Positions 14,314 to 30,433 of a DNA stretch of 45,132 nucleotides are shown here, piece after piece; within the stretch, counting starts at the first letter, position 1, and every line of letters begins with the position of its first letter. Both the position numbers and the translations under genes were made by a program. The DNA comes from an uncultured Bacteroidota bacterium. GTDB lineage: Bacteria; Bacteroidota; Bacteroidia; 2-12-FULL-35-15. The stretch covers positions 1 to 45,132 of the forward strand of contig CAINDA010000016.1 in assembly GCA_903847205.1 (NCBI GenBank). Reading direction: 5' to 3'. The notes under the pieces were generated by a model that had not been told where the DNA came from, made no database searches, and saw nothing but the letters and a program-made list of their open reading frames with translations.

Positions 14314-15675
14314 TTGAGTTTATATCCTGTCAGATATTTCATTTTTAAGTTCAAAAAAATTATTCCAACAGGAATTATTTTCTACGCGTGTTTAATAATG
14401 CTTGGTAATACAGTTGCTGCCCAGAATGTGAATTCGGAAAATATTCTTACTGAGGACACCACGGTTTTGTCTAAAAAAAATCAGAAATTACTAGTGTCGC
14501 AAGTGGATATTAAAGATCTTGCAAAAGAACTTTTTGATATCAGGCATCATTTAACTTTGAGGATTGTTGAAGACAGCGGATTTTTTGTTCACCCTCTTTC
14601 ACACCCGGTTTTACAATCTGAAAACGCTTTTTTAAAACCAGGTAAACTGCTTTTTGCAATTCTCCCGGCAGTAGGTTATACTTTGCAGACTGGAACAACA
14701 GCAATTGTTGCAATGAACTTGTCTTTTTTAAAAGGAAATGCCGACAGCACCAACCTTTCAACCATAACAATAAATCCTGCAATGTCCCTGCAGTACAATC
14801 AGTATTTTTTAAATATAATATCTAATGTTTGGTCAGAAAAAAACAAATGGGATTTTTTAGGCGATTGGCGTTTATATAAATACCCTACTTATACATACGG
14901 CTTAGGGGGTCATTCCACCGTTAATGATGCAGACTTAATAGATTATTCATTCCTTAGAATATATCAGAATGCCTTAAAACAAATAGGCGCATCTGATTTT
15001 TATACGGGATTTGGATATAATCTGGATTACCATTTCAGTATTTCTGAACAGTCGGATGCAATTGGTACAGATTTTCATTTATACAACGGAAATGCTCAAA
15101 AAACTGTATCTTCAGGACTGTCATACAATTTATTATACGACAGCAGGAAAAACAGCAACTATGGGGAAGATGCCTCCTATTTTAATCTTTCATACCGTTA
15201 CAATTCTAAATATATGGGAAGCGATCAAAACTGGCAGTCGCTCTACCTTGATTTCAGAAAATACATTAAACTTTCTCCTCATTCAGATAATGTATTGGCG
15301 TTTTGGAACCTGGATTGGTTTACCTTTGGAGGAAATGCCCCTTATTTTGATTTGCCGAGTACCGGCTGGGATGTTTATTCCAATACCGGCAGGGGCTATA
15401 TACAAAGCAGACTTAGAGGTCCTGGAATGCTTTACTTTGAAACAGAATACCGCTTTAAACTTACCAAAAACGGATTGTTCGGCGGAGTAATATTTGCAAA
15501 TGCAGAAAGTGTTTCAGAAATCGCAACTAAGAGGTTTGAAACCGTTTTACCGGGGGAAGGATTAGGGCTGAGGATAAAACTTAATAAGATTTCAGGGGCT
15601 AATCTTTCTATTGATTATGGTTTCGGAACCAGCGGGTCGCAGGGCTTTTTCTTTAATATCAGTGAAGTATTCTAA
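14314..15675 (+). CDS. Omp85-superfamily (D15-type) outer-membrane barrel without POTRA domains
   Basis: This 453-residue protein resembles the BamA/TamA surface-antigen barrel family as found in Bacteroidota. The start is TTG at 14314: it gives a plausible long signal peptide (basic segment F-K-F-K-K, hydrophobic core, V-A-A before Gln), while the next ATG falls inside that core. Barrel signatures include 'LPAVGYTLQTGTTA', 'WDFLGDWRLYKYPTYTYGLG', 'YDSRKNSNYGED', and 'TGRGYIQSRLRG', which corresponds to the loop-6 'RGY' motif placed inside the barrel. It ends in Phe, the usual barrel signal. About 100 residues precede the barrel, too few for several POTRA domains. Members may help insert or translocate outer-membrane components, but this subfamily has no assigned substrate. 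Two envelope genes follow on the same strand. Confidence 0.82.
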   Translation: MSLYPVRYFIFKFKKIIPTGIIFYACLIMLGNTVAAQNVNSENILTEDTTVLSKKNQKLLVSQVDIKDLAKELFDIRHHLTLRIVEDSGFFVHPLSHPVLQSENAFLKPGKLLFAILPAVGYTLQTGTTAIVAMNLSFLKGNADSTNLSTITINPAMSLQYNQYFLNIISNVWSEKNKWDFLGDWRLYKYPTYTYGLGGHSTVNDADLIDYSFLRIYQNALKQIGASDFYTGFGYNLDYHFSISEQSDAIGTDFHLYNGNAQKTVSSGLSYNLLYDSRKNSNYGEDASYFNLSYRYNSKYMGSDQNWQSLYLDFRKYIKLSPHSDNVLAFWNLDWFTFGGNAPYFDLPSTGWDVYSNTGRGYIQSRLRGPGMLYFETEYRFKLTKNGLFGGVIFANAESVSEIATKRFETVLPGEGLGLRIKLNKISGANLSIDYGFGTSGSQGFFFNISEVF

Positions 15676-15789
15676 TTAAAAAAAATAATTTGTAATTTAA
15701 AGATAGATTTTTCGTTTAATTTAAACAAGACGCTTTAGAAACAATTTTTCAATACTATTTGATAGTATTAATAATTAAAAATTATTACA

Positions 15790-16530
15790 ATGTTTAATAG
15801 TCATCTTTTATTTTCCAGCAGATTTCTCCGGTTTTCCGGGATTATGTTTCTTACGATGCTTCTATGCATGCCGGCAGTTAAAGCTCAGGATACCCTAATT
15901 AAGCGGAATAACGAAAAAATAGTTATTGTAATTCGTTCAGTGGATCCGGATGTAATTAAATATAAACGCTTCGATTACCAGGAGGGGCCTGTATTTACAG
16001 TAGGAAAGTGGGAATTAAAAAGCATTGCTTACAGCAATGGTGCAACCGAATCATTTGAAGGCTATACAATGCCTGTATTCGAGAGTCCGGTAAAAACGGA
16101 TCTTTCTATTCAGCCTACAGGAAGATTTTATTATTTCAAAAATCAAAAAATTAAGGAACAAAACATGCTGGATGTGGTTTGGAAATTAAATGACAAAAAA
16201 ATAAATATGGCCGTAGCCAAAACAGAGCAGATAAAATTTACAAAAAACTGTTTTCTTGTCGGCGGAATTGCATTAGGAGCTGGAGGTCTCTTAACTGCAG
16301 CCGGTGTTTTTTCTGGTTCAAATTCCCGCACTGCTAATTCTACAATCGGAGGCGCCGGCAGCCGCAGGAGGGCTCAAAGAGCTGCACGGACCCAAAGCCA
16401 AAAGATAGGCGGGTATATGATGTTGGGAGGGTTAAGCTGTGAAGTTGTTTCAGTTGTTATTAATATCAAGGAAAGAAAATATGCGCATATTGCTGTTGAT
16501 TTATATAATAAAGCCCTGCTTCAACAATAA
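15790..16530 (+). CDS. Secreted or membrane-anchored protein with Gly-rich helices, unknown function
   Basis: The 246-residue product has a signal peptide (about 1-33, ending A-V-K-A before Gln). The next part contains 'VDPDVIKYKRFDYQEGPVFTV' and 'LKSIAYSNGATESFEG', a recurrent Bacteroidota pattern in which a small beta domain describes 'I-K-Y-K ... G-P ... I-x-Y-x-N-G'. Two hydrophobic Gly-rich segments follow, about 156-176 ('GGIALGAGGLLTAAG') and 215-232 ('YMMLGGLSCEVVSVVIN'), separated by an Arg/Ser-rich loop. The second half could be a membrane hairpin. The gene lies 114 bases after the Omp85-type gene and 93 bases before the Met-rich lipoprotein gene, all on the plus strand. No enzymatic motif is visible. 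Confidence 0.65.
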   Translation: MFNSHLLFSSRFLRFSGIMFLTMLLCMPAVKAQDTLIKRNNEKIVIVIRSVDPDVIKYKRFDYQEGPVFTVGKWELKSIAYSNGATESFEGYTMPVFESPVKTDLSIQPTGRFYYFKNQKIKEQNMLDVVWKLNDKKINMAVAKTEQIKFTKNCFLVGGIALGAGGLLTAAGVFSGSNSRTANSTIGGAGSRRRAQRAARTQSQKIGGYMMLGGLSCEVVSVVINIKERKYAHIAVDLYNKALLQQ

Positions 16531-16623: not shown

Positions 16624-17502
16624 ATGAAAATTATAATTAAATACTGCATATCTGCTGTTGCCGTGGCTTTATTTATTTCGTGCAGCAATACTGTTAATAA
16701 AGGACTTTGGCAGTCTCAGCCCCTGCTGGTAAATGAGGGTGGTAACCGATCACTTGATTCGTTTAAATCATATGATAGCGAAAGTGAATTGTATTATACA
16801 ATAAGCAACGATCTTGACAATTTGTATTTTTCTATTAAAACAAATAATCAGAAAACTCAAATGAGGATACTCCGCTCAGGAATTGAGTTTTGCATTGATA
16901 CTGCCGGAAAATACAGCGACAGGACAAAAATTCTTTTTCCGTTTGCCGTGCTGCATAAAAAAAATAATTCTGCTTCAGGCGGAAGTTATGGAGCAGATCA
17001 AAGCAGCGGGCATTCAAGAAATCATGGCATCAATCAAAAGCCAGAAACACTGGAATTGTTAAAGAAAAAATTTACAGACGCAGATAAAACAATGCACCTG
17101 ATTGGCTTTAAAACTCCCATCGGCGGGGCAGTTCCGTTACCGAATGATTACGGAATAAAAATGAATATCAGCTGGGACACCTCCAATACTATGATATATC
17201 AGGCTTCTATCCCATTTGTTACTTTTTATAAAAAACTGATTCCTGCTTCCGACAGTGCAAAAATTTTCGGTATTTCCATGAATCTTAATGGTCTTCCAGT
17301 GCAGCAAAGTCCCTACGGAATGAGACCTATGGGCGGAGGCGGTATAAGCATGGGGATGGGAGGAATGGGCGGAATGGGAATGGGCTTCGGGGTAAGGATG
17401 CCGATGGGAGGAACACCCGGCATGGGTAACCCGGCCTATCAGCAGACCAGCAGCACTAAAATAAAAATGAAAATAAAATTGGCGTTGAAACCCGATAAGT
17501 AA
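16624..17502 (+). CDS. Lipoprotein with DOMON/CBM9-like domain and Met/Gly-rich tail
   Basis: The 292-residue protein has a lipoprotein-type signal with Cys20 after F-I-S. Residues about 30-200 look like a DOMON or carbohydrate-binding family 9-like sandwich: 'YDSESELYYTISNDLDNLYFSIKT', 'FCIDTAGKYSDRTKILFPF', and late 'GIKMNISWDTSNTMIYQASIPF'. Residues 233-269 are extraordinary: 26 of 37 are Met or Gly, including M-G-M-G-G-M-G-G-M-G-M-G. Met-rich stretches bind Cu(I) or Ag(I) in some periplasmic proteins, and DOMON domains can hold haem or sugar. Neither function is proven here. The stop codon is 16 bases from the end of the convergent L,D-transpeptidase gene, with a shared hairpin between them. 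Confidence 0.7.
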   Translation: MKIIIKYCISAVAVALFISCSNTVNKGLWQSQPLLVNEGGNRSLDSFKSYDSESELYYTISNDLDNLYFSIKTNNQKTQMRILRSGIEFCIDTAGKYSDRTKILFPFAVLHKKNNSASGGSYGADQSSGHSRNHGINQKPETLELLKKKFTDADKTMHLIGFKTPIGGAVPLPNDYGIKMNISWDTSNTMIYQASIPFVTFYKKLIPASDSAKIFGISMNLNGLPVQQSPYGMRPMGGGGISMGMGGMGGMGMGFGVRMPMGGTPGMGNPAYQQTSSTKIKMKIKLALKPDK

Positions 17503-23653: not shown

Positions 23654-25840
23654 ATGAGTGTTTTAGAAAATTTACGTAAACGTTCCGGACTATTAGTAAC
23701 AATAGTGGGTTTAGCGTTATTAGCATTTGTTTTAACAGGCTTGTTAGAAAAGAGTTCTTCGGGGAGTTCAAAAGATAAATCTGTGGGCGAGATAGCTGGT
23801 AAGATGATTGATTATAGCTCATTTAATGCAAAAGTGCAGGACGCAGTTGAAAACAAAAAACGTAACAGCGGCAAAACGGCGCTTGAAGAAAGCGAAATGG
23901 ACGGCATCGTTCAGCAAGCCTGGAACCAGGTGATTAATGAAGAAGTGATGAACAAAGAATATGAAAAACTCGGTATTTCTGTTTCTGACGAAGAGCTGTA
24001 TGATTTAATGATTGACCATCCGCACCCTGCGCTGATCCGTAATCTCAGCGATCCTCAGACAGGTAAAATTGCGCCTGCTTTCGCGGATGCTTCAGGTGCA
24101 TTAAGCCCTGCTAAAATAAAAGAATTCACACAAAAAATGACCCCGGAACAAGAAACATCCTGGACGCAGTTAGAAACTTTTATCCGCCAGATACGCATCA
24201 ATGAAAAATATAATAACCTTATCAAAAAAGGTTTATATGTAACTACAGCGGCTGCTAAGCGCGATTACATTGCTCAAAATTCAAACATAGCCATTAAGTA
24301 TGTTGCTAAAAATTATAAAGTAATTCCCGACAGTACTATTAAAGTTACTGATGCTGATTTAAATACATATTACGCAGCTCATCAAAATGAATTTAAACAG
24401 GAAGCTTCAAGAAAAATTGAGTACGTAGCATTTGATATTTCTCCTTCACAGGAAGATAAAGACGACGCGCTGAAGTCAATGCAGGGTGTTGCAAATAATT
24501 TTAAAGGAACAAAAACCGGTGAGGATTCAGCTTTTGTAATTTCTGAATCAGATACTCACAATATGGATTTAAGTTTTCATGCAAAAGGAACTTTATCTCC
24601 TGCAATTGATTCAATAATGTTTAAAGAAGATATAGGAACAGTATTCGGACCTTATTTAGAGAACGGTTCTTTTAAGGTTTCAAAATTAATTGCCGTAAAA
24701 AAATCTGCAGATTCTGCAAAAGTCCGCCATATTTTACTTGCATATAAAGGCTCTGGAGCATCTGAATCAGTAACACGTACAAAAGAACAGGCAAAAACAG
24801 AAGCAGACAGCCTTCTTAAATTATTAAAAAAAGGCGCAAAATTCGCGGATTACGTAGAAAAGTTTTCTGATGACGGCGGTAAAAGAATGCCTCCGAACAA
24901 GAAGCCAAACGAATCCTATCCAGGTAAAGGCGGAGACTACGGCTGGTTAAATCCGAAAAGCCAATTTGTTGAACCATTTAAAAATGCTGGACTTGACGGC
25001 AAAAAAGGCGACATAGTAATTGCTGAATCACAATTCGGATATCACATTATTGAAGTGATGGATTCAAAAGGTTCTCAGAAAAAAGTGGAGGTGGCTACGA
25101 TTGAAAGAAAATTAGAACCGAGCAGCAAAACAATGCAGGCAGTGTTTGTTCATGCAAGTGAATTTGCAGGCAAAAACAATACAAATGAATTATTTCAAAA
25201 AGCGGTTATTGAAAATAAATTAAATAAACGCATTGCTGATAATATCAAAGAAAACGATAAAACTATCGCCGGGATTGAGTCGCCGCGTACTTTAATCCGC
25301 TGGACATACGATAACAAAAAAGGCACAGTATCCGATCCTTTGGAATTTGGAAATAAATTTGTTGTTGCCGTTTTAGCCGAGATAAGAGAAAAGGGCACTG
25401 CGCCTCTGCTTCAGGTGAAAGACGACGTTACAGCCAAAGTGATAAAAGAGAAAAAAGGCGAAATGATTGCTAAAGAATTGAGCTCATCAATTACTCCTGG
25501 TGTTCAGATTGAAGCACTTGCAGCAAAAATGAAATTAAATGTAGAGCAGGCTCAAAATATTAATTTTAATGCATCAGCTATTCAGGGAGCCGGAAACCAG
25601 CCAAGTGTTATCGGCGCTGTTTCTGTTCTGAAAGCGAATACAATCAGCAAGCCGTTATCAGGTAAAGACGGCGTGTTTGTAGTATTTGTAGAATCAGTGA
25701 AAGAAGCCCCTGCACAAAAAGATTATAAAATACATCAGACTGCTGCCCTTGCTCAGTTGCAGCCGCGTGTTGAAAACGAAGTATATGATGCATTAAAAAC
25801 GAATGCAAATATCGTTGAGCATTTGGTGAAGTTCTATTAG
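23654..25840 (+). CDS. ppiD: Periplasmic peptidyl-prolyl isomerase, PpiD/SurA type
   Basis: The 728-residue foldase is anchored in the inner membrane by one helix (about 12-31, 'GLLVTIVGLALLAFVLTGLL') with most of the chain in the periplasm. A SurA_N-type chaperone region (about 45-200) contains 'IVQQAWNQVINEEVMNKEYEKLGI'. The parvulin (rotamase) domain runs from 'AKVRHILLAYKG' (residue 355) to 'SQFGYHIIEVMDSKG' (about 460), with 'GGDYGWLNPKSQFVEPF' in between. A long C-terminal segment follows. PpiD helps newly exported proteins fold as they leave the Sec channel; in this phylum it would serve many T9SS cargoes and barrels. A strong terminator follows the stop codon. Length and layout are normal for Bacteroidota. 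Confidence 0.92.
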   Translation: MSVLENLRKRSGLLVTIVGLALLAFVLTGLLEKSSSGSSKDKSVGEIAGKMIDYSSFNAKVQDAVENKKRNSGKTALEESEMDGIVQQAWNQVINEEVMNKEYEKLGISVSDEELYDLMIDHPHPALIRNLSDPQTGKIAPAFADASGALSPAKIKEFTQKMTPEQETSWTQLETFIRQIRINEKYNNLIKKGLYVTTAAAKRDYIAQNSNIAIKYVAKNYKVIPDSTIKVTDADLNTYYAAHQNEFKQEASRKIEYVAFDISPSQEDKDDALKSMQGVANNFKGTKTGEDSAFVISESDTHNMDLSFHAKGTLSPAIDSIMFKEDIGTVFGPYLENGSFKVSKLIAVKKSADSAKVRHILLAYKGSGASESVTRTKEQAKTEADSLLKLLKKGAKFADYVEKFSDDGGKRMPPNKKPNESYPGKGGDYGWLNPKSQFVEPFKNAGLDGKKGDIVIAESQFGYHIIEVMDSKGSQKKVEVATIERKLEPSSKTMQAVFVHASEFAGKNNTNELFQKAVIENKLNKRIADNIKENDKTIAGIESPRTLIRWTYDNKKGTVSDPLEFGNKFVVAVLAEIREKGTAPLLQVKDDVTAKVIKEKKGEMIAKELSSSITPGVQIEALAAKMKLNVEQAQNINFNASAIQGAGNQPSVIGAVSVLKANTISKPLSGKDGVFVVFVESVKEAPAQKDYKIHQTAALAQLQPRVENEVYDALKTNANIVEHLVKFY

Positions 25841-25863
25841 AAAAAATTCCTCTTCACTTTCCT

Positions 25864-25897
25864 AATTCCCCAGTCTGAATAAGATTGGGGAATTTTT
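25864..25897 (+). terminator. Rho-independent terminator of ppiD
   Basis: Arms 25864-25876 and 25882-25894 pair over 13 positions (one G-T) around the loop GAATA and run into a T tract. The hairpin lies 24 bases after the ppiD stop codon. Confidence 0.85.
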
Positions 25898-25936
25898 ATT
25901 TCAGCCTGCTTATTCTAAAAACAGAACTGTAAAATA

Positions 25937-26014
25937 ACCACGGAGACACGGAGAACATAAAGAAGCAGGGAGAAACTACTCTGTTAAACTCCGTGAAATC
26001 AGTGTCTCTGTGGT
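25937..26014. repeat. Intergenic inverted repeat (CACGGAGACACGGAG-type)
   Basis: ACCACGGAGACAC (25937-25949) pairs with GTGTCTCTGTGGT (26002-26014) over 13 positions with one G-U, and CACGGAG (25947-25953) is also complementary to CTCCGTG (25989-25995). The element sits in the gap between the ends of two convergent genes. It resembles the short dispersed palindromes seen between genes in many bacteria and does not look like a simple terminator. Confidence 0.65.
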
Positions 26015-26068
26015 AAATTTTAAAAATTCAAAATGTATAAATTTATCCCGTTTTGAGTATATTTTGTA

Positions 26069-26500
26069 TTAAAGCCTGCGAAGCACCATGGCAGTGTATT
26101 TTTCAGGAACAGCCAATTCTGAGGTGCAGTAATTAATCTTATTCTGTATGGAAGGCGGGTACTCTTCGGTTATTTGAAATCCGAAAGGAATAAAAAATTC
26201 AGGGATGATGCAGACCAAATAAATGTCCTTAGAAGAATTATTGATCAGCTTAGTTACAATTGCTTTGCCTATGCCTTTTCGGCGGTGTTGTGCAATAACA
26301 CCGAGGGAGCAGAGTTCAAGGCAGCTGTTGTGTTCGCGAAGTCGGCCGAAACCGGCTAAAATAGTATCGCGTAAAGCAGCAGTAAATTGTTTTTTCTGAA
26401 GCTCTCTATTATCCAATTCAAACTCGTTTATAAAAAAACAAATTTGACTGAACTCTATGTCCGTAGGTACTCTGAGGCTAAGCTGCAAATTGTTCAACAA
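26069..26500 (-). CDS. GNAT-family N-acetyltransferase
   Basis: The 143-residue protein has the GNAT acetyl-CoA loop: 'LELCSLGVIAQHRRKGIGKAIVTKLI' (about 60-86), where R-R-K-G-I-G is the pyrophosphate-binding Q/R-x-x-G-x-G/A motif. The late 'IPEFFIPFGFQIT' matches the usual beta6/beta7 region with F-x-x-F-G-F. It would transfer an acetyl group from acetyl-CoA to an amine; the substrate cannot be predicted. It is slightly short at the N-terminus, and the only start available before an in-frame stop is TTG at 26500. The gene ends near the inverted repeat and is convergent with ppiD. The slyD gene lies upstream on the same strand, separated by a terminator. Confidence 0.8.
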   Translation of the reverse strand: MLNNLQLSLRVPTDIEFSQICFFINEFELDNRELQKKQFTAALRDTILAGFGRLREHNSCLELCSLGVIAQHRRKGIGKAIVTKLINNSSKDIYLVCIIPEFFIPFGFQITEEYPPSIQNKINYCTSELAVPEKYTAMVLRRL

Positions 26501-26536
26501 TGAATTCTAAGATTATTAAGTGTAAAACATCGTAAA

Positions 26537-26589
26537 TAAAAAACTCCGCTCAGAATTACTTTCCCAAAAGATTGTAAAATGAGCGGAGT
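26537..26589 (-). terminator. Terminator of slyD
   Basis: ACTCCGCTCA (26543-26552) and TGAGCGGAGT (26580-26589) form a perfect 10-bp stem with a 27-base loop. On the minus strand a run of T follows directly. It begins 17 bases after the stop codon of the slyD-type gene. Confidence 0.8.
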
Positions 26590-26606
26590 ATATTTTGTTA
26601 AGCTGT

Positions 26607-27113
26607 TTAGTGATGATGGCCGTGTGCCCCGTGAACATGTCCGTGAGCCAGCTCTTCTTCAGTAGCTGCGCGTACTTCAAGCACCTCGCCTTTAAAGTGA
26701 AGATCCTGACCGGCTAAAGGGTGGTTAAAATCCATCTTAACATATTCTGATGTGATTTCTTTTACCAAACCGTACAAACGTCCCCCTTCATTATCAACCA
26801 TAGGAAGTGTTACGCCTACTTTTACATTTTCTTCATCAAATTTGCCGTCTTCACCAACAAATGCGTCAATTGGTATCTGCACAAGATGCTGTTCATCGCG
26901 AACACCGTAACCCCGTTTGTGATCAATAAAAAAATCGAATGTATCGCCTGCTTTTTTGCTGATTAAATTGGTTTCAAAATCTTCTAACAAACCGCCAGTA
27001 CCAAATATAAACACAAATGGATGTTCTTTGCTTGTTTGTTCAATCTGTTCACCGGTTTCTTTTTTTGATAAAAGGTAGTTTACTGAAACTACTGCATTGT
27101 TTTCTATTGTCAT
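26607..27113 (-). CDS. slyD: SlyD-like FKBP-type peptidyl-prolyl isomerase
   Basis: The 168-residue cytoplasmic isomerase/chaperone has the SlyD layout: an FKBP half ('VSVNYLLSKKETGEQIEQT', 'FVFIFGTGGLLEDFETNLISKKAGDTFDFFI'), an insert-in-flap domain ('YGVRDEQHLVQIPIDAFVG ... LPMVDNEGG'), and the returning FKBP strands ('MDFNHPLAGQDLHFKGEVLEVR'). The chain ends in a His cluster, H-G-H-V-H-G-A-H-G-H-H-H, which in SlyD proteins binds Ni(II) and other divalent metals. No hydrogenase genes are near, so a general folding role is the safe reading. A candidate promoter box precedes it and a terminator follows, so it is probably monocistronic. Confidence 0.93.
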   Translation of the reverse strand: MTIENNAVVSVNYLLSKKETGEQIEQTSKEHPFVFIFGTGGLLEDFETNLISKKAGDTFDFFIDHKRGYGVRDEQHLVQIPIDAFVGEDGKFDEENVKVGVTLPMVDNEGGRLYGLVKEITSEYVKMDFNHPLAGQDLHFKGEVLEVRAATEEELAHGHVHGAHGHHH

Positions 27114-27504
27114 GATTGCAAAATTTTTAAATTAATATTAGGAGGCAAAAGTATATGAAATTGAGGAAATAATTAACGAAAAGATGTGTTTTATTTTAAC
27201 GGCAGTATTGAAGCTGAAACCAATTAAACCTTCAAAAACTTAGGGATATTTCGATTGAAAAAAATAAAAACTCTTCACTGGTTAAATAAAAACACTCTCA
27301 TAAACATTGATTGCAACCTTTACTTACAGCTGTTTTAAAAGTGTCTTTTTTCGTGTTAGGGCTACTTGTTTGCATGGAGTTTTTTGTTTATGTAATAAAT
27401 CGCACCATGCAGTAAGGTCTATGTTTGTTTAACAGCGGATATTTTATTACCCGCCGCAACTATAATAAATGCAATAAAATTTTTGTATTGATTTCGCCCT
27501 TTTT
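27114..27504. other. Intergenic region between lepA and slyD
   Basis: These 391 bases contain the slyD promoter box at the left. Otherwise I see only short inverted repeats: TGCATGG/CCATGCA (27371-27411) and GCGG/CCGC near 27435-27460, one of which may end the lepA transcript. No ORF or known RNA is apparent. Confidence 0.5.
27146..27153 (-). promoter_or_regulatory. Candidate -7 promoter box of slyD
   Basis: The minus strand reads TACTTTTG (TAnnTTTG), 32 bases before the slyD start codon. The same octamer recurs before lspA and the carboxylase gene. Confidence 0.5.
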
Positions 27505-29295
27505 TTAATCATTCAGCTTCAACACTGCCATAAACGCACTTTGCGGGATTTCCACGCTGCCTACAGAACGCATGCGTTTCTTACCTTCTTTCTGTTTTTC
27601 AAGGAGTTTGCGTTTACGTGAAATATCACCGCCGTAGCATTTTGCAGTAACATCTTTACGCATCGCTTTTATTGTTTCGCGCGAAATAATTTTAGCGCCG
27701 ATAGCTGCCTGAATAGGGATTTCGAACTGATGGCGGGGAATTAATTCTTTTAATTTCTCGCACATTTTTTTGCCAAACTCATAAGCATTGTCACGGTGAA
27801 TAAGCGACGACAATGCATCTACAGGCTCTGAGTTGAGCAGTATATCCAGTTTTACTAAATAGCTCTGGCGGTAATCCAAAGGCTGATAATCGAAAGAAGC
27901 ATATCCTTTAGAAATAGTTTTTAAGCGGTCGTAAAAATCAAATACGATTTCGCCCAAGGGCATGTCAAACATCAGCTCCACACGGTCTGTAGTTAGATAT
28001 ACCTGGTTGGTTAAGTTGCCGCGCTTGCCGATACAGAGCGTCATAATGTTGCCTACAAATTCTGATTTAGTAATAATCTGTGCTTTGATGTATGGTTCTT
28101 CAACACGGTCGAGCCTGCTCGGGTCGGGCAGATCAGAAGGGTTGTTCACTACCAGCATTTCTTCTTTAGTTGTATAAGCATGGTATGATACGTTGGGAAC
28201 AGTAGTAATTACAGTCATTCCGAACTCACGCTCCAAACGTTCCTGAACAATTTCCATGTGCAGCATACCCAGGAAACCGCAGCGGAAGCCAAAGCCAAGT
28301 GCAACAGATGATTCTGGCTCCCATGTTAAGGAGGCATCATTCAGCTGAAGCTTTTCCATGGAGTAACGCAGCTCCTCAAAATCTTCGGTGTCAACCGGGT
28401 AAATACCTGCAAACACCATCGGTTTCACATCTTCAAAACCTTGAATAGGCTCAATAGAAGGGTTCAGCACGCTTGTAATTGTGTCGCCTACTTTTACTTC
28501 GCGTGCATCTTTAATCCCTGAAATAATATAACCAACATCGCCTGTTTTAATTTCGCCGCGCGGCTCCTGCTTTAATCTTAAAACACCTATCTCATCAGCA
28601 TTGTATTCTTTTCCGGTGGCAACAAATTTTACTTTCTCGCCCTTTTTAATTGAGCCGTTCTGGATTTTAAAATATCCGATAATGCCGCGAAATGAATTAT
28701 AAACAGAGTCAAAAATCAATGCCTGCAAAGGTTTCGAAGGATCGCCTTTCGGGGGAGGAATACGTTCAATGATTGCAGCCAGAATATCGAAAACGCCGAG
28801 TCCTGTTTTTCCGGATGCTGAAATAATTTCCTCGCGTTTACAGCCCAGTAATTCTACGATCTGGTCTTTTACTGCTTCGGGTTCTGCACTCGGCAGGTCA
28901 ATTTTATTTAAAACGGGAATAATCTCCAAATCATTGCCCAGCGCGAGATATAAGTTAGAAATAGTCTGCGCCTGTATGCCCTGCGCTGCATCAACAATCA
29001 GCAAAGCACCTTCGCAAGCAGCGATAGAACGTGATACTTCATAGGAAAAATCAACGTGTCCGGGAGTATCAATTAAATTTAAAACATATTTTTTACCCTG
29101 ATATTCATAATCCATTTGAATAGCATGGCTCTTAATGGTAATGCCGCGCTCTTTTTCCAAATCCATATCATCCAATACCTGCGCCTGCATATCGCGTTTG
29201 TCAATTGTCTTAGTATATTCAAGCAGGCGGTCGGCAAGAGTGCTTTTACCGTGATCGATGTGTGCAATGATGCAAAAATTTCTTATGTTGTTCAT
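27505..29295 (-). CDS. lepA: Elongation factor 4 (LepA), ribosome-associated GTPase
   Basis: The 596-residue protein is a complete LepA. The G domain has '[15 protein letters not shown]' (P-loop, residues 10-24), '[13 protein letters not shown]' (switch I), '[12 protein letters not shown]' (G3), and '[11 protein letters not shown]' (G4). Domain II, EF-G-like domains III and V ('[25 protein letters not shown]') and the LepA-specific C-terminal domain ('[29 protein letters not shown]') follow in the usual order. LepA acts on ribosomes during initiation and stalled elongation and helps under ionic stress. Many bacteria pair lepA with a signal peptidase gene (lepB); here signal peptidase II (lspA) lies upstream on the same strand, 448 bases away and separated by a palindrome. 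Confidence 0.98.
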
Positions 29296-29743
29296 TCCTT
29301 AAATTAAATCTCCATTTTAAATGTGATTGCGAATCTACTAAAAATCCATGAATTAGAGGCGTAAAGGGTGAAAGGCAATTATCACCTTTTATTTGCAGGC
29401 TTAGAAAGACCTGTCAGGTTTTTAAACCTGACAGGTCTATAAAAGAGAACAGTTTGTTAAACATAAATCGGACTTAGGGGATAGGCTGTTAGTTGAAGGG
29501 AATCAAAAAAAATCCTTGTAGATTTACTCAAATAGGACAGGGTTTCCTTTATTCACAATTATTTGCAGAAACCTGATGTTTTTTCGGAAGCATTCCTGGC
29601 TATTCTTTTAACAAAAAATGAGACGCGACAAATTTAGATTCTGGATACAATGCGAATGGAACAGACCGCCAATTCCTTGAAGCAGGAGTAGAATTCTGTT
29701 TAAAATTCCAATAAAAACTGACGAGAATCTCCGTGTCAATTAA
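29296..29743. other. Intergenic region between lspA and lepA, with palindrome
   Basis: Apart from the 15-bp palindrome at 29407-29438, I see no gene or RNA in these 448 bases. Short frames with no plausible protein character are present. Confidence 0.55.
29407..29438. repeat. Perfect 15-bp intergenic palindrome (CCTGTCAGG type)
   Basis: AGACCTGTCAGGTTT and its exact complement AAACCTGACAGGTCT are separated by two bases. On the minus strand a short T-rich stretch follows, so it could end the lspA transcript, but it is about 300 bases downstream of lspA. It looks more like a dispersed intergenic palindrome than a gene-specific terminator. Confidence 0.75.
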
Positions 29744-30433
29744 TTATTCAGGATGAGATTCAGGAGTAACAGGTGTTTTAGAAGCAGGTGAAGCTGATTC
29801 AGGAGTTACTTCAGCAGGTTTCTCTAATGGAGTGACAGCTTTCTTTCCAAAAAAACGTTTTTGAAAAAGCACAATCATTCCTACACCGCCGCTGATTGAA
29901 GCATCGGCGAAATTAAATACCGGGCGGAAAAAAATAAATTCTTCGGTTCCCCAAAATGGAAACCATGCAGGAAAATGTCCCCTGATAACGGGGAAGTAAA
30001 ACATGTCAACTACTTTGCCGTGTAAAAACGAAGAATAGCCGCCTTCTGGAGGCATAAACCTTGAGATTTCGCAGGTGCTGTCGCTGAATATCATGCCGTA
30101 AAAAACACTGTCGAGAATATTACCTACTGCGCCTGCAAAAATTAATGAAATACATACAAGATATAATTTATCTTCTTTTTGTTTTGATAAACTCCATAAA
30201 TACCAGCCGATACCAGCTACTGCCGCAATACGAAATACGCTTAAAAACAATTTGCCGAAATTGCCGCCGAACTCCATGCCGTAAGCCATTCCATTGTTTT
30301 CTGTAAAATGTATAATGAACCAGCCCCCTGCGACATTTACCTCGTCGCCAAGAAAAAAATGGGTCTTTACATAAATTTTAATCAGCTGATCAATCAGCAG
30401 TACAAAAAATATTATAATTAAGGGCTTTCTCAC
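29744..30433 (-). CDS. lspA: Lipoprotein signal peptidase (signal peptidase II)
   Basis: This inner-membrane aspartyl protease cuts the signal peptide of prolipoproteins just before the lipid-modified Cys; many lipoproteins in this window need it. The 229-residue chain has four membrane helices. Conserved motifs: 'DQLIKIYVK' (helix 1), 'NNGMAYG' (the N-x-G-x-A-[FY]-G motif), 'GNILDSVFYG' with the first catalytic Asp (near residue 107), and 'FNFADASISGG' with the second (near residue 176). The Bacteroidota insertion 'GKVVDMFYFPVI' is present. A ~30-residue Pro/Thr/Ser/Glu tail extends beyond the usual end. The start is GTG at 30433: no in-frame ATG exists before the upstream stop. A -7 box lies 27 bases upstream. 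Confidence 0.95.
   Translation of the reverse strand: MRKPLIIIFFVLLIDQLIKIYVKTHFFLGDEVNVAGGWFIIHFTENNGMAYGMEFGGNFGKLFLSVFRIAAVAGIGWYLWSLSKQKEDKLYLVCISLIFAGAVGNILDSVFYGMIFSDSTCEISRFMPPEGGYSSFLHGKVVDMFYFPVIRGHFPAWFPFWGTEEFIFFRPVFNFADASISGGVGMIVLFQKRFFGKKAVTPLEKPAEVTPESASPASKTPVTPESHPE

Follow-up and report, generated by a model that had tools for sequence, protein, structure and literature searches.

A Met/Gly-rich loop in a family of CBM9-type envelope lipoproteins of Bacteroidota and its possible link to outer-membrane barrels

What does a dense run of methionine and glycine contribute to an envelope lipoprotein? The question is raised by a gene on the + strand (16624..17502) of the window, by which we mean the whole stretch of 45,132 nucleotides of Bacteroidota DNA that was analysed. 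Defined by its open reading frame and by end-to-end alignment of relatives, the gene encodes a 292-residue lipoprotein with a Met/Gly loop. Gly/Met-rich sequence is otherwise known from chaperones, in the GroEL tail and in J-proteins, and an envelope family that carries such sequence in a fixed loop, often beside barrel genes, would offer a natural test of the role of Met, with hydrophobic contact, metal binding or nothing at stake.

The Met/Gly segment and the fold around it

In the frame of the open reading frame 16624-17502 (+ strand), positions 17320-17430 read MRPMGGGGISMGMGGMGGMGMGFGVRMPMGGTPGMGN. Recounting these residues, 233-269 of the protein, gave 10 Met and 16 Gly, that is 26 of 37, exactly as the sequence-only reading had counted. 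The best 37-residue window of the lipoprotein holds 27 Met/Gly, compared to a maximum of 18 and a mean of 11.1 in 20,000 shuffles of the protein and to 5 to 11 Met+Gly per 37-residue window in 10 other open reading frames from the same part of the window. A young tandem repeat or a frame artefact is ruled out by 2.7 copies of a 9-mer in the loop DNA (Tandem Repeats Finder), by mixed Gly codons and by a conserved strand after the loop. The Gly codons of the loop (GGA 7, GGC 5, GGT 2, GGG 2) follow the usage in the other window genes (GGA 122, GGC 106, GGT 58, GGG 39). One canonical G-quadruplex pattern occurs in the whole window, at 17352-17392 within the loop-coding stretch; we take it as a by-product and not as the sign of a DNA-level role, the pattern being present in only 6 of 77 family tails.

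The protein starts with a signal peptide and lipobox FISC (16624..16683, + strand, assigned from the sequence), with the codon of the lipidated Cys20 at 16681-16683 and without acidic residues at positions +2 to +6; S19 and C20 are invariant across the clade of four to which the window protein belongs. An AlphaFold2 model built from an alignment of 72 sequences (mean pLDDT 81.1, pTM 0.76) shows a confident beta-sandwich, whose core spans residues 25-221 (16696..17286, + strand) according to the model and fold comparison. Residues 233-266 are predicted to be disordered (pLDDT <50) and lie between the strand 214-221 and the last sandwich strand, residues 278-285 (17455..17478, + strand). Because this last strand comes after it, the Met/Gly segment (residues 233-269, 17320..17430, + strand, delimited by model and composition) is an internal loop, predicted to be disordered, that joins the final two strands of the CBM9-type sandwich. 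Of the flexible tail that had been offered as an alternative to metal binding, the flexibility is thus borne out by the prediction, whereas the tail is not.

The guess of a DOMON/CBM9-like domain agrees with the fold comparison. In VIA, the model matched the CBM9 module 7nwo with Z 11.4 (rmsd 3.1 over 148 residues), followed by the CBM9 modules 7nwn (11.3) and 1i82 (10.4), the Bacteroides protein 4jpq (10.1) and the haem subunit 2ivf_C (9.4), against a background of antibody chains and unrelated rows at Z of about 6-6.5. Foldseek also placed CBM9 modules on top, if weakly: 7nwn came first with E 2.8e-3, and no match reached E 0.001 or better. Pfam and NCBIfam scans of the window lipoprotein returned zero families at E up to 1, and a Pfam scan of 13 family cores returned no family below E 0.04 and no CBM9 model. 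Searching the solved structures with the family profile returned 0 matches, and the fold comparison speaks for the folds in the VIA list only. The sandwich fold is what the lipoprotein model has in common with the CBM9 modules (7nwo, 7nwn, 1i82) and 4jpq; it differs from them in an identity of only about 10%, in the lack of a Pfam match and in the added Met/Gly loop, and any sugar binding by it would be hypothetical.

Two other identities were considered and dropped. Haem-binding DOMON and ethylbenzene-dehydrogenase gamma domains use Met, His or Lys as axial ligands. The core of 72 sequences contains no invariant or nearly invariant Met, His or Lys except the start Met, which disfavours a haem domain. 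The best PDB sequence match of the lipoprotein is the Met-rich loop of an Aquifex multicopper oxidase (6ttd and 6syy, presumably McoA), at E 0.5 and by composition only. Both proteins have a Met/Gly-rich loop in a beta-sandwich, but the lipoprotein has no oxidase domain.

Met/Gly linkers are not unique to the lipoprotein within its genome. One M-G-M-G pattern matches at 15 places, two of which are the loop segment itself, and one further match sits in an M/G-rich stretch of the unrelated protein L191. This protein, also recorded as L018 (G000:C41, ~89979) and labelled SPFH/virion-core-like by eye, carries the linker GMMGAGVGMGMGFGVGSQMGNM with 17 Met/Gly in 37 residues.

Retention of Met across the family

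With the protein as query, the family was found in 11 of 59 genomes; a core-only profile found it in 62 of 395 genomes when the class was sampled and in 72 of 395 when the phylum was. The window genome holds a second copy with 39% identity. Nearly all of the 37 named loci belong to metagenome-assembled Bacteroidetes, several of whose names include palsa, fen or lake. No family model for the lipoprotein was found in Pfam or NCBIfam, and the literature searched, which covered few subscription papers, contained no description of the lipoprotein family among the matches listed. We regard these proteins as a Bacteroidota family of lipid-anchored envelope proteins, of which some distant members are apparently soluble (about 14, judged by eye, have a signal peptide without a lipobox). 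The CBM9-type sandwich, the lipoprotein and the Gly/Met segment are each of a known kind; what is new is that they occur together and are linked to OMP_b-brl_3 barrels.

Our comparisons are based on 77 distinct proteins, derived from the window, 60 regions fetched from search matches and the 37 loci. The set draws on part of the class-profile matches, and locus L145 yielded no gene above threshold. Counts on 74 members exclude L116, whose gene is cut by a contig end, as well as L061 and L075, which are near copies of L059. The insert was defined as everything after the core-profile match minus the last 18 residues and, in distant members, includes some ordered residues.

A Gly-rich stretch occupies a constant position ahead of the last strand, both in alignments of 15 and 13 members and, by eye, in the fetched regions. 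Inserts with at least 8 Gly are present in 67 of the 74 members; 66 of these 67 contain Met, the exception being L097, and 53 contain at least three. Three of the 74 inserts (L097, L106 and L107) are without any Met. Relatives with Gly/Ser-only loops, which the sequence-only reading had named as the outcome that would speak against metal binding, did not occur. Judged by these sequences, the family has preserved both the Gly-rich character of the loop and its Met, and we are highly confident of the loop anatomy and the retention of Met taken together.

Composition was compared in the Gly-richest 30-residue window of each protein (at least 11 Gly), a choice in which Met plays no part. Among non-Gly residues, the 58 family windows contain 31.2% Met and 6.4% His, the 22 windows from OMP_b-brl_3-type neighbours 10.3% and 0.8%, and the 5 windows from other neighbours 1.3% of each. 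Resampling one protein per clade gave 24-39% Met in the insert versus 2-3% in the core, and 1.5-7% versus about 1% for His; over the family core, Met is at about 2.5%. The family windows are low in Leu, Ile, Val and Phe, low in Asp/Glu and free of Cys, and Arg is a common companion, making up 14.2% of the non-Gly residues in family inserts. A Met-Met distance of 5 was found in 79 of 233 cases in members outside the window clade, within which distances of 2 to 4 prevail.

In a tree built from 73 core sequences, the window protein pairs with L049 (100/99); L074 (98/90) joins this pair first and L078 (99/97) after it. The tails after the core of these four proteins contain 9 to 21 Met, and the closest orthologue (64% identity) has about twice the Met count of the window protein. 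Searching the 77 distinct proteins with the pattern G[VIFLM]R[IMLV]P revealed that three of the four, and 0 of the 74 others, share a short G[VI]R[IM]P motif located inside the Met array or behind it; in the window protein it is part of GFGVRMPMGG (residues 254-263, 17383..17412, + strand), with similar sequences in L049 and L074.

Such a loop might do nothing beyond being flexible: a fast-evolving, low-complexity spacer in which Met arrived with the expansion of Gly/Met units and was tolerated as small, flexible and uncharged. The positions and spacing of Met and the length of the loop are not conserved, the Met count about doubles between closest orthologues, seven of the 74 inserts fall short of 8 Gly and three lack Met, and an unrelated M/G linker exists in the same genome (L191), all of which is compatible with a passive spacer. 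Moreover, with 10% Met already in the barrel windows, the lipoprotein family shares part of its Met bias with other proteins, perhaps as a general trait of this group's envelope proteins. Passivity accounts less well for Met in almost every Gly-rich insert of many clades, at three times its share in barrel windows of equal Gly, and for the short motif common to three of the four Met-dense clade members. In addition, no Gly codon can become a Met or His codon with fewer than two base changes, which makes drift alone a poor explanation; plain drift from Gly codons is also disfavoured by the Met excess. On balance, we consider a passive spacer somewhat unlikely but a serious rival; even a passive loop would be a clear case of low-complexity sequence that is tolerated despite its strong bias.

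Genes beside the lipoprotein and the side of the membrane

The sequence-only reading had inferred a copper-handling segment. Worked out further, this would make Met, and in other clades His, an envelope binding site for Cu(I)/Ag(I) that buffers the metal or hands it over. The composition fits in part: no residues exceed their level in the barrel windows as much as Met and His do, and His at 6.4% in the family versus 0.8% is what a metal role predicts; Cys is absent, Asp/Glu are low, and the short Met spacings of the window clade fit as well. SilE is said to be a disordered, His/Met-rich envelope silver protein. A possible precedent is the outer-membrane protein PcoB, whose poorly conserved, disordered His/Met region is reported to be required for copper efflux and also to stabilise PcoA (PMC12509749). 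The lipoprotein is like PcoB and SilE in having a poorly conserved, disordered Met-rich segment (with His in some relatives) in the envelope, but unlike them its loop is Gly-dominated, it has a folded CBM9-type domain and it has no copper genes nearby. Among 729 neighbouring genes at the 77 loci, four motif types searched with our own patterns (heavy-metal-associated, P1B-ATPase, multicopper-oxidase and CopC-like) had zero matches, and no copper family was found among 18 window proteins scanned against Pfam and 3 more scanned against NCBIfam. The genomic support that copper handling would call for is therefore missing, the recurrent neighbours being outer-membrane barrels. Against metal binding stand also the near absence of His in the window clade (zero tail His in three of the four, one in the fourth) and the high share of Arg in the family inserts. 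We judge copper or silver handling to be unlikely, though a serious rival.

Far less probable still is oxidant scavenging, in which exposed Met would take up reactive chlorine or oxygen species as a sacrificial sink. The high local Met content of a probably exposed and flexible loop would suit a sink, but many relatives are a poor fit with their scarce Met (2 of 73 tail residues in L056, for example), and no recurrent redox-repair neighbour appeared among the clusters listed, a peroxiredoxin-like gene occurring in 5 loci at varying places.

Clustering of the neighbours yielded one frequent neighbour, a protein of about 950 residues. All five of these proteins that were scanned match the OMP_b-brl_3 and carboxypeptidase-regulatory-like models, and two of the five have a TonB plug match, one of them below the cut-off. 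At 23 of 74 loci, an OMP_b-brl_3 gene is the immediate same-strand neighbour of the lipoprotein gene, 18 times downstream and 5 times upstream, compared to 15 of 661 other genes in these loci (Fisher p 1.9e-15, with loci counted irrespective of relatedness), and in 20 of the 23 the gap between the lipoprotein and barrel genes is between -14 and 36 bases. The other 51 members, among them the window copy and the other three of its clade, have no adjacent OMP_b-brl_3 gene.

Members of the window clade have barrel-like company of a different kind. Upstream of the window lipoprotein are genes for a 453-residue protein (14314..15675, + strand), the second half of which is Omp85-barrel-like (NCBIfam Omp85_fam, E 1.9e-16, 60.6 bits versus a cut-off of 200), and for a 246-residue exported protein (15790..16530, + strand) with a weak Lipocalin_4 match below the cut-off. 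In L074, from another family of the class, homologues of the two (54% and 44%) precede the lipoprotein at the same places, the gene of the 246-residue homologue lying directly before the lipoprotein gene with an overlap of four bases. In G008, the 453/246-residue gene pair is on one contig and the lipoprotein on another, and in G213 the pair lies about 3 kb from a truncated family member on the other strand, with an intact member elsewhere. From these layouts, two of the four members keep the Omp85-like, 246-residue and lipoprotein genes together as a trio. In L078, an OMP_b-brl_2 barrel gene is directly upstream of the lipoprotein.

To which side of the outer membrane the lipoprotein belongs can be approached through its N-terminus. 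In surface lipoproteins of Bacteroidetes, the lipidated Cys is reported to be followed closely by acidic residues (PMC5080379; PMC12578637). With a loose lipobox pattern, 50 of 53 members had zero acidic residues at +2 to +6 and 3 had one; with a stricter pattern, an acidic residue was present in 3 of 44 members versus 14 of 36 other nearby predicted lipoproteins, a weak control in which only 2 of the 36 hold two or more. Both patterns are our own, and some rows matched a Cys inside the signal peptide (e.g. L054, L074 and L077). Because the usual surface-export signal is absent, the periplasmic side is the more likely one, as these sequences weakly suggest.

The barrel neighbours carry a Gly-rich stretch of their own after the third strand, in which Arg and Ser outnumber Met; in the barrel neighbour gene of L050 (8192-11038, + strand) it covers approximately residues 286-341. 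We modelled the barrel encoded beside the second copy in the window genome (949 residues, 20 sequences, mean pLDDT 79.6), in which the Gly-rich stretch (289-341 with pLDDT <50) follows the third barrel strand and would be outside by strand count. Direct contact between the two Gly-rich loops was dropped as the main idea: the barrel loop is placed outside by strand count while the lipoprotein seems to be inside given its missing export signal, so that the loops would not meet.

A tentative role as barrel accessory

As the genomic company of the family is barrels and not copper genes, we favour a contact loop of a barrel accessory. The lipoprotein would be an accessory of outer-membrane beta-barrels, more likely on the periplasmic side; the Gly backbone would keep the loop long and mobile, and the flexible, hydrophobic Met side chains could engage a barrel partner or unfolded barrel chains through numerous weak interactions, by analogy with the contact mode proposed for the Gly/Met tail of GroEL. 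The anatomy, the Met retention and the barrel linkage are computed, and to these the proposal adds a membrane side and a contact function that we infer. For the whole statement, anatomy included, that the protein is an envelope accessory whose loop touches barrels or unfolded barrel chains through its Met residues, our estimate is a probability of roughly 0.4. The disordered loop within a confident sandwich, the three-fold excess of Met over barrel windows, the barrel adjacency, the Omp85-like gene upstream in the window and L074 and the OMP_b-brl_2 gene directly upstream in L078 argue for it. Arguing against it are the 51 of 74 members, and the window clade, that no such barrel adjoins, the 10% Met of the barrel windows, the apparent placement of the two Gly-rich loops on opposite sides, and the enrichment of His, which has no role in a contact loop of this kind. 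If it is true, the family provides a candidate partner for OMP_b-brl_3 barrels.

SusD/BtuG-type lipoproteins are reportedly partners of TonB-dependent transporters. The present family resembles them in that its gene adjoins a large TonB-type barrel gene at the 23 of 74 loci, the window copy not included; it differs in the missing surface-export signal, in having OMP_b-brl_3 as partner and in the lack of a Pfam SusD match.

For the (GGM)4M tail of GroEL, replacement of Gly or Met is reported to abolish rescue of one depletion strain, while all variants rescue another (PMC11978752), and the tail is described as forming polyproline-II-like helices, with reported client binding and stimulation of folding (PMC12571646). 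Class B J-proteins are reported to have a disordered Gly-Met region (PMC11722011). The lipoprotein loop shares with the GroEL/Hsp60 tail and the J-protein region its short Gly/Met units and predicted disorder, and may, by analogy, share a tie to the biogenesis of other proteins. Unlike the GroEL tail, the segment is internal and not C-terminal, its fold is unrelated and it belongs to the envelope and not to the cytosol. A bolder version of the contact loop, which we put forward as speculative and quite improbable, would make the protein an envelope assembly factor of Bacteroidota, a CBM9-type lipoprotein whose GroEL-like Gly/Met loop serves as an ATP-free, flexible hydrophobic arm that holds or docks barrels (OMP_b-brl_3, Omp85-like) during assembly or gating.

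Other gene arrangements were observed in the course of the comparison. The 453- and 246-residue genes form a conserved adjacent pair (window 14314-16530, L074 3960-5999, G008:C35 26485-28587, G213:C20 25898-27752, G149:C161 37859-39638), in several genomes without the lipoprotein beside it. L050, L062 and L098 share a different two-gene pair upstream of the lipoprotein, which by eye we take to be a TonB-type receptor and a DUF4249-type lipoprotein. Elsewhere in the window, at 23654-30433 and at most 13 kb from the lipoprotein, there are genes for a SurA/PpiD-like peptidyl-prolyl isomerase, an FKBP-type isomerase and signal peptidase II.
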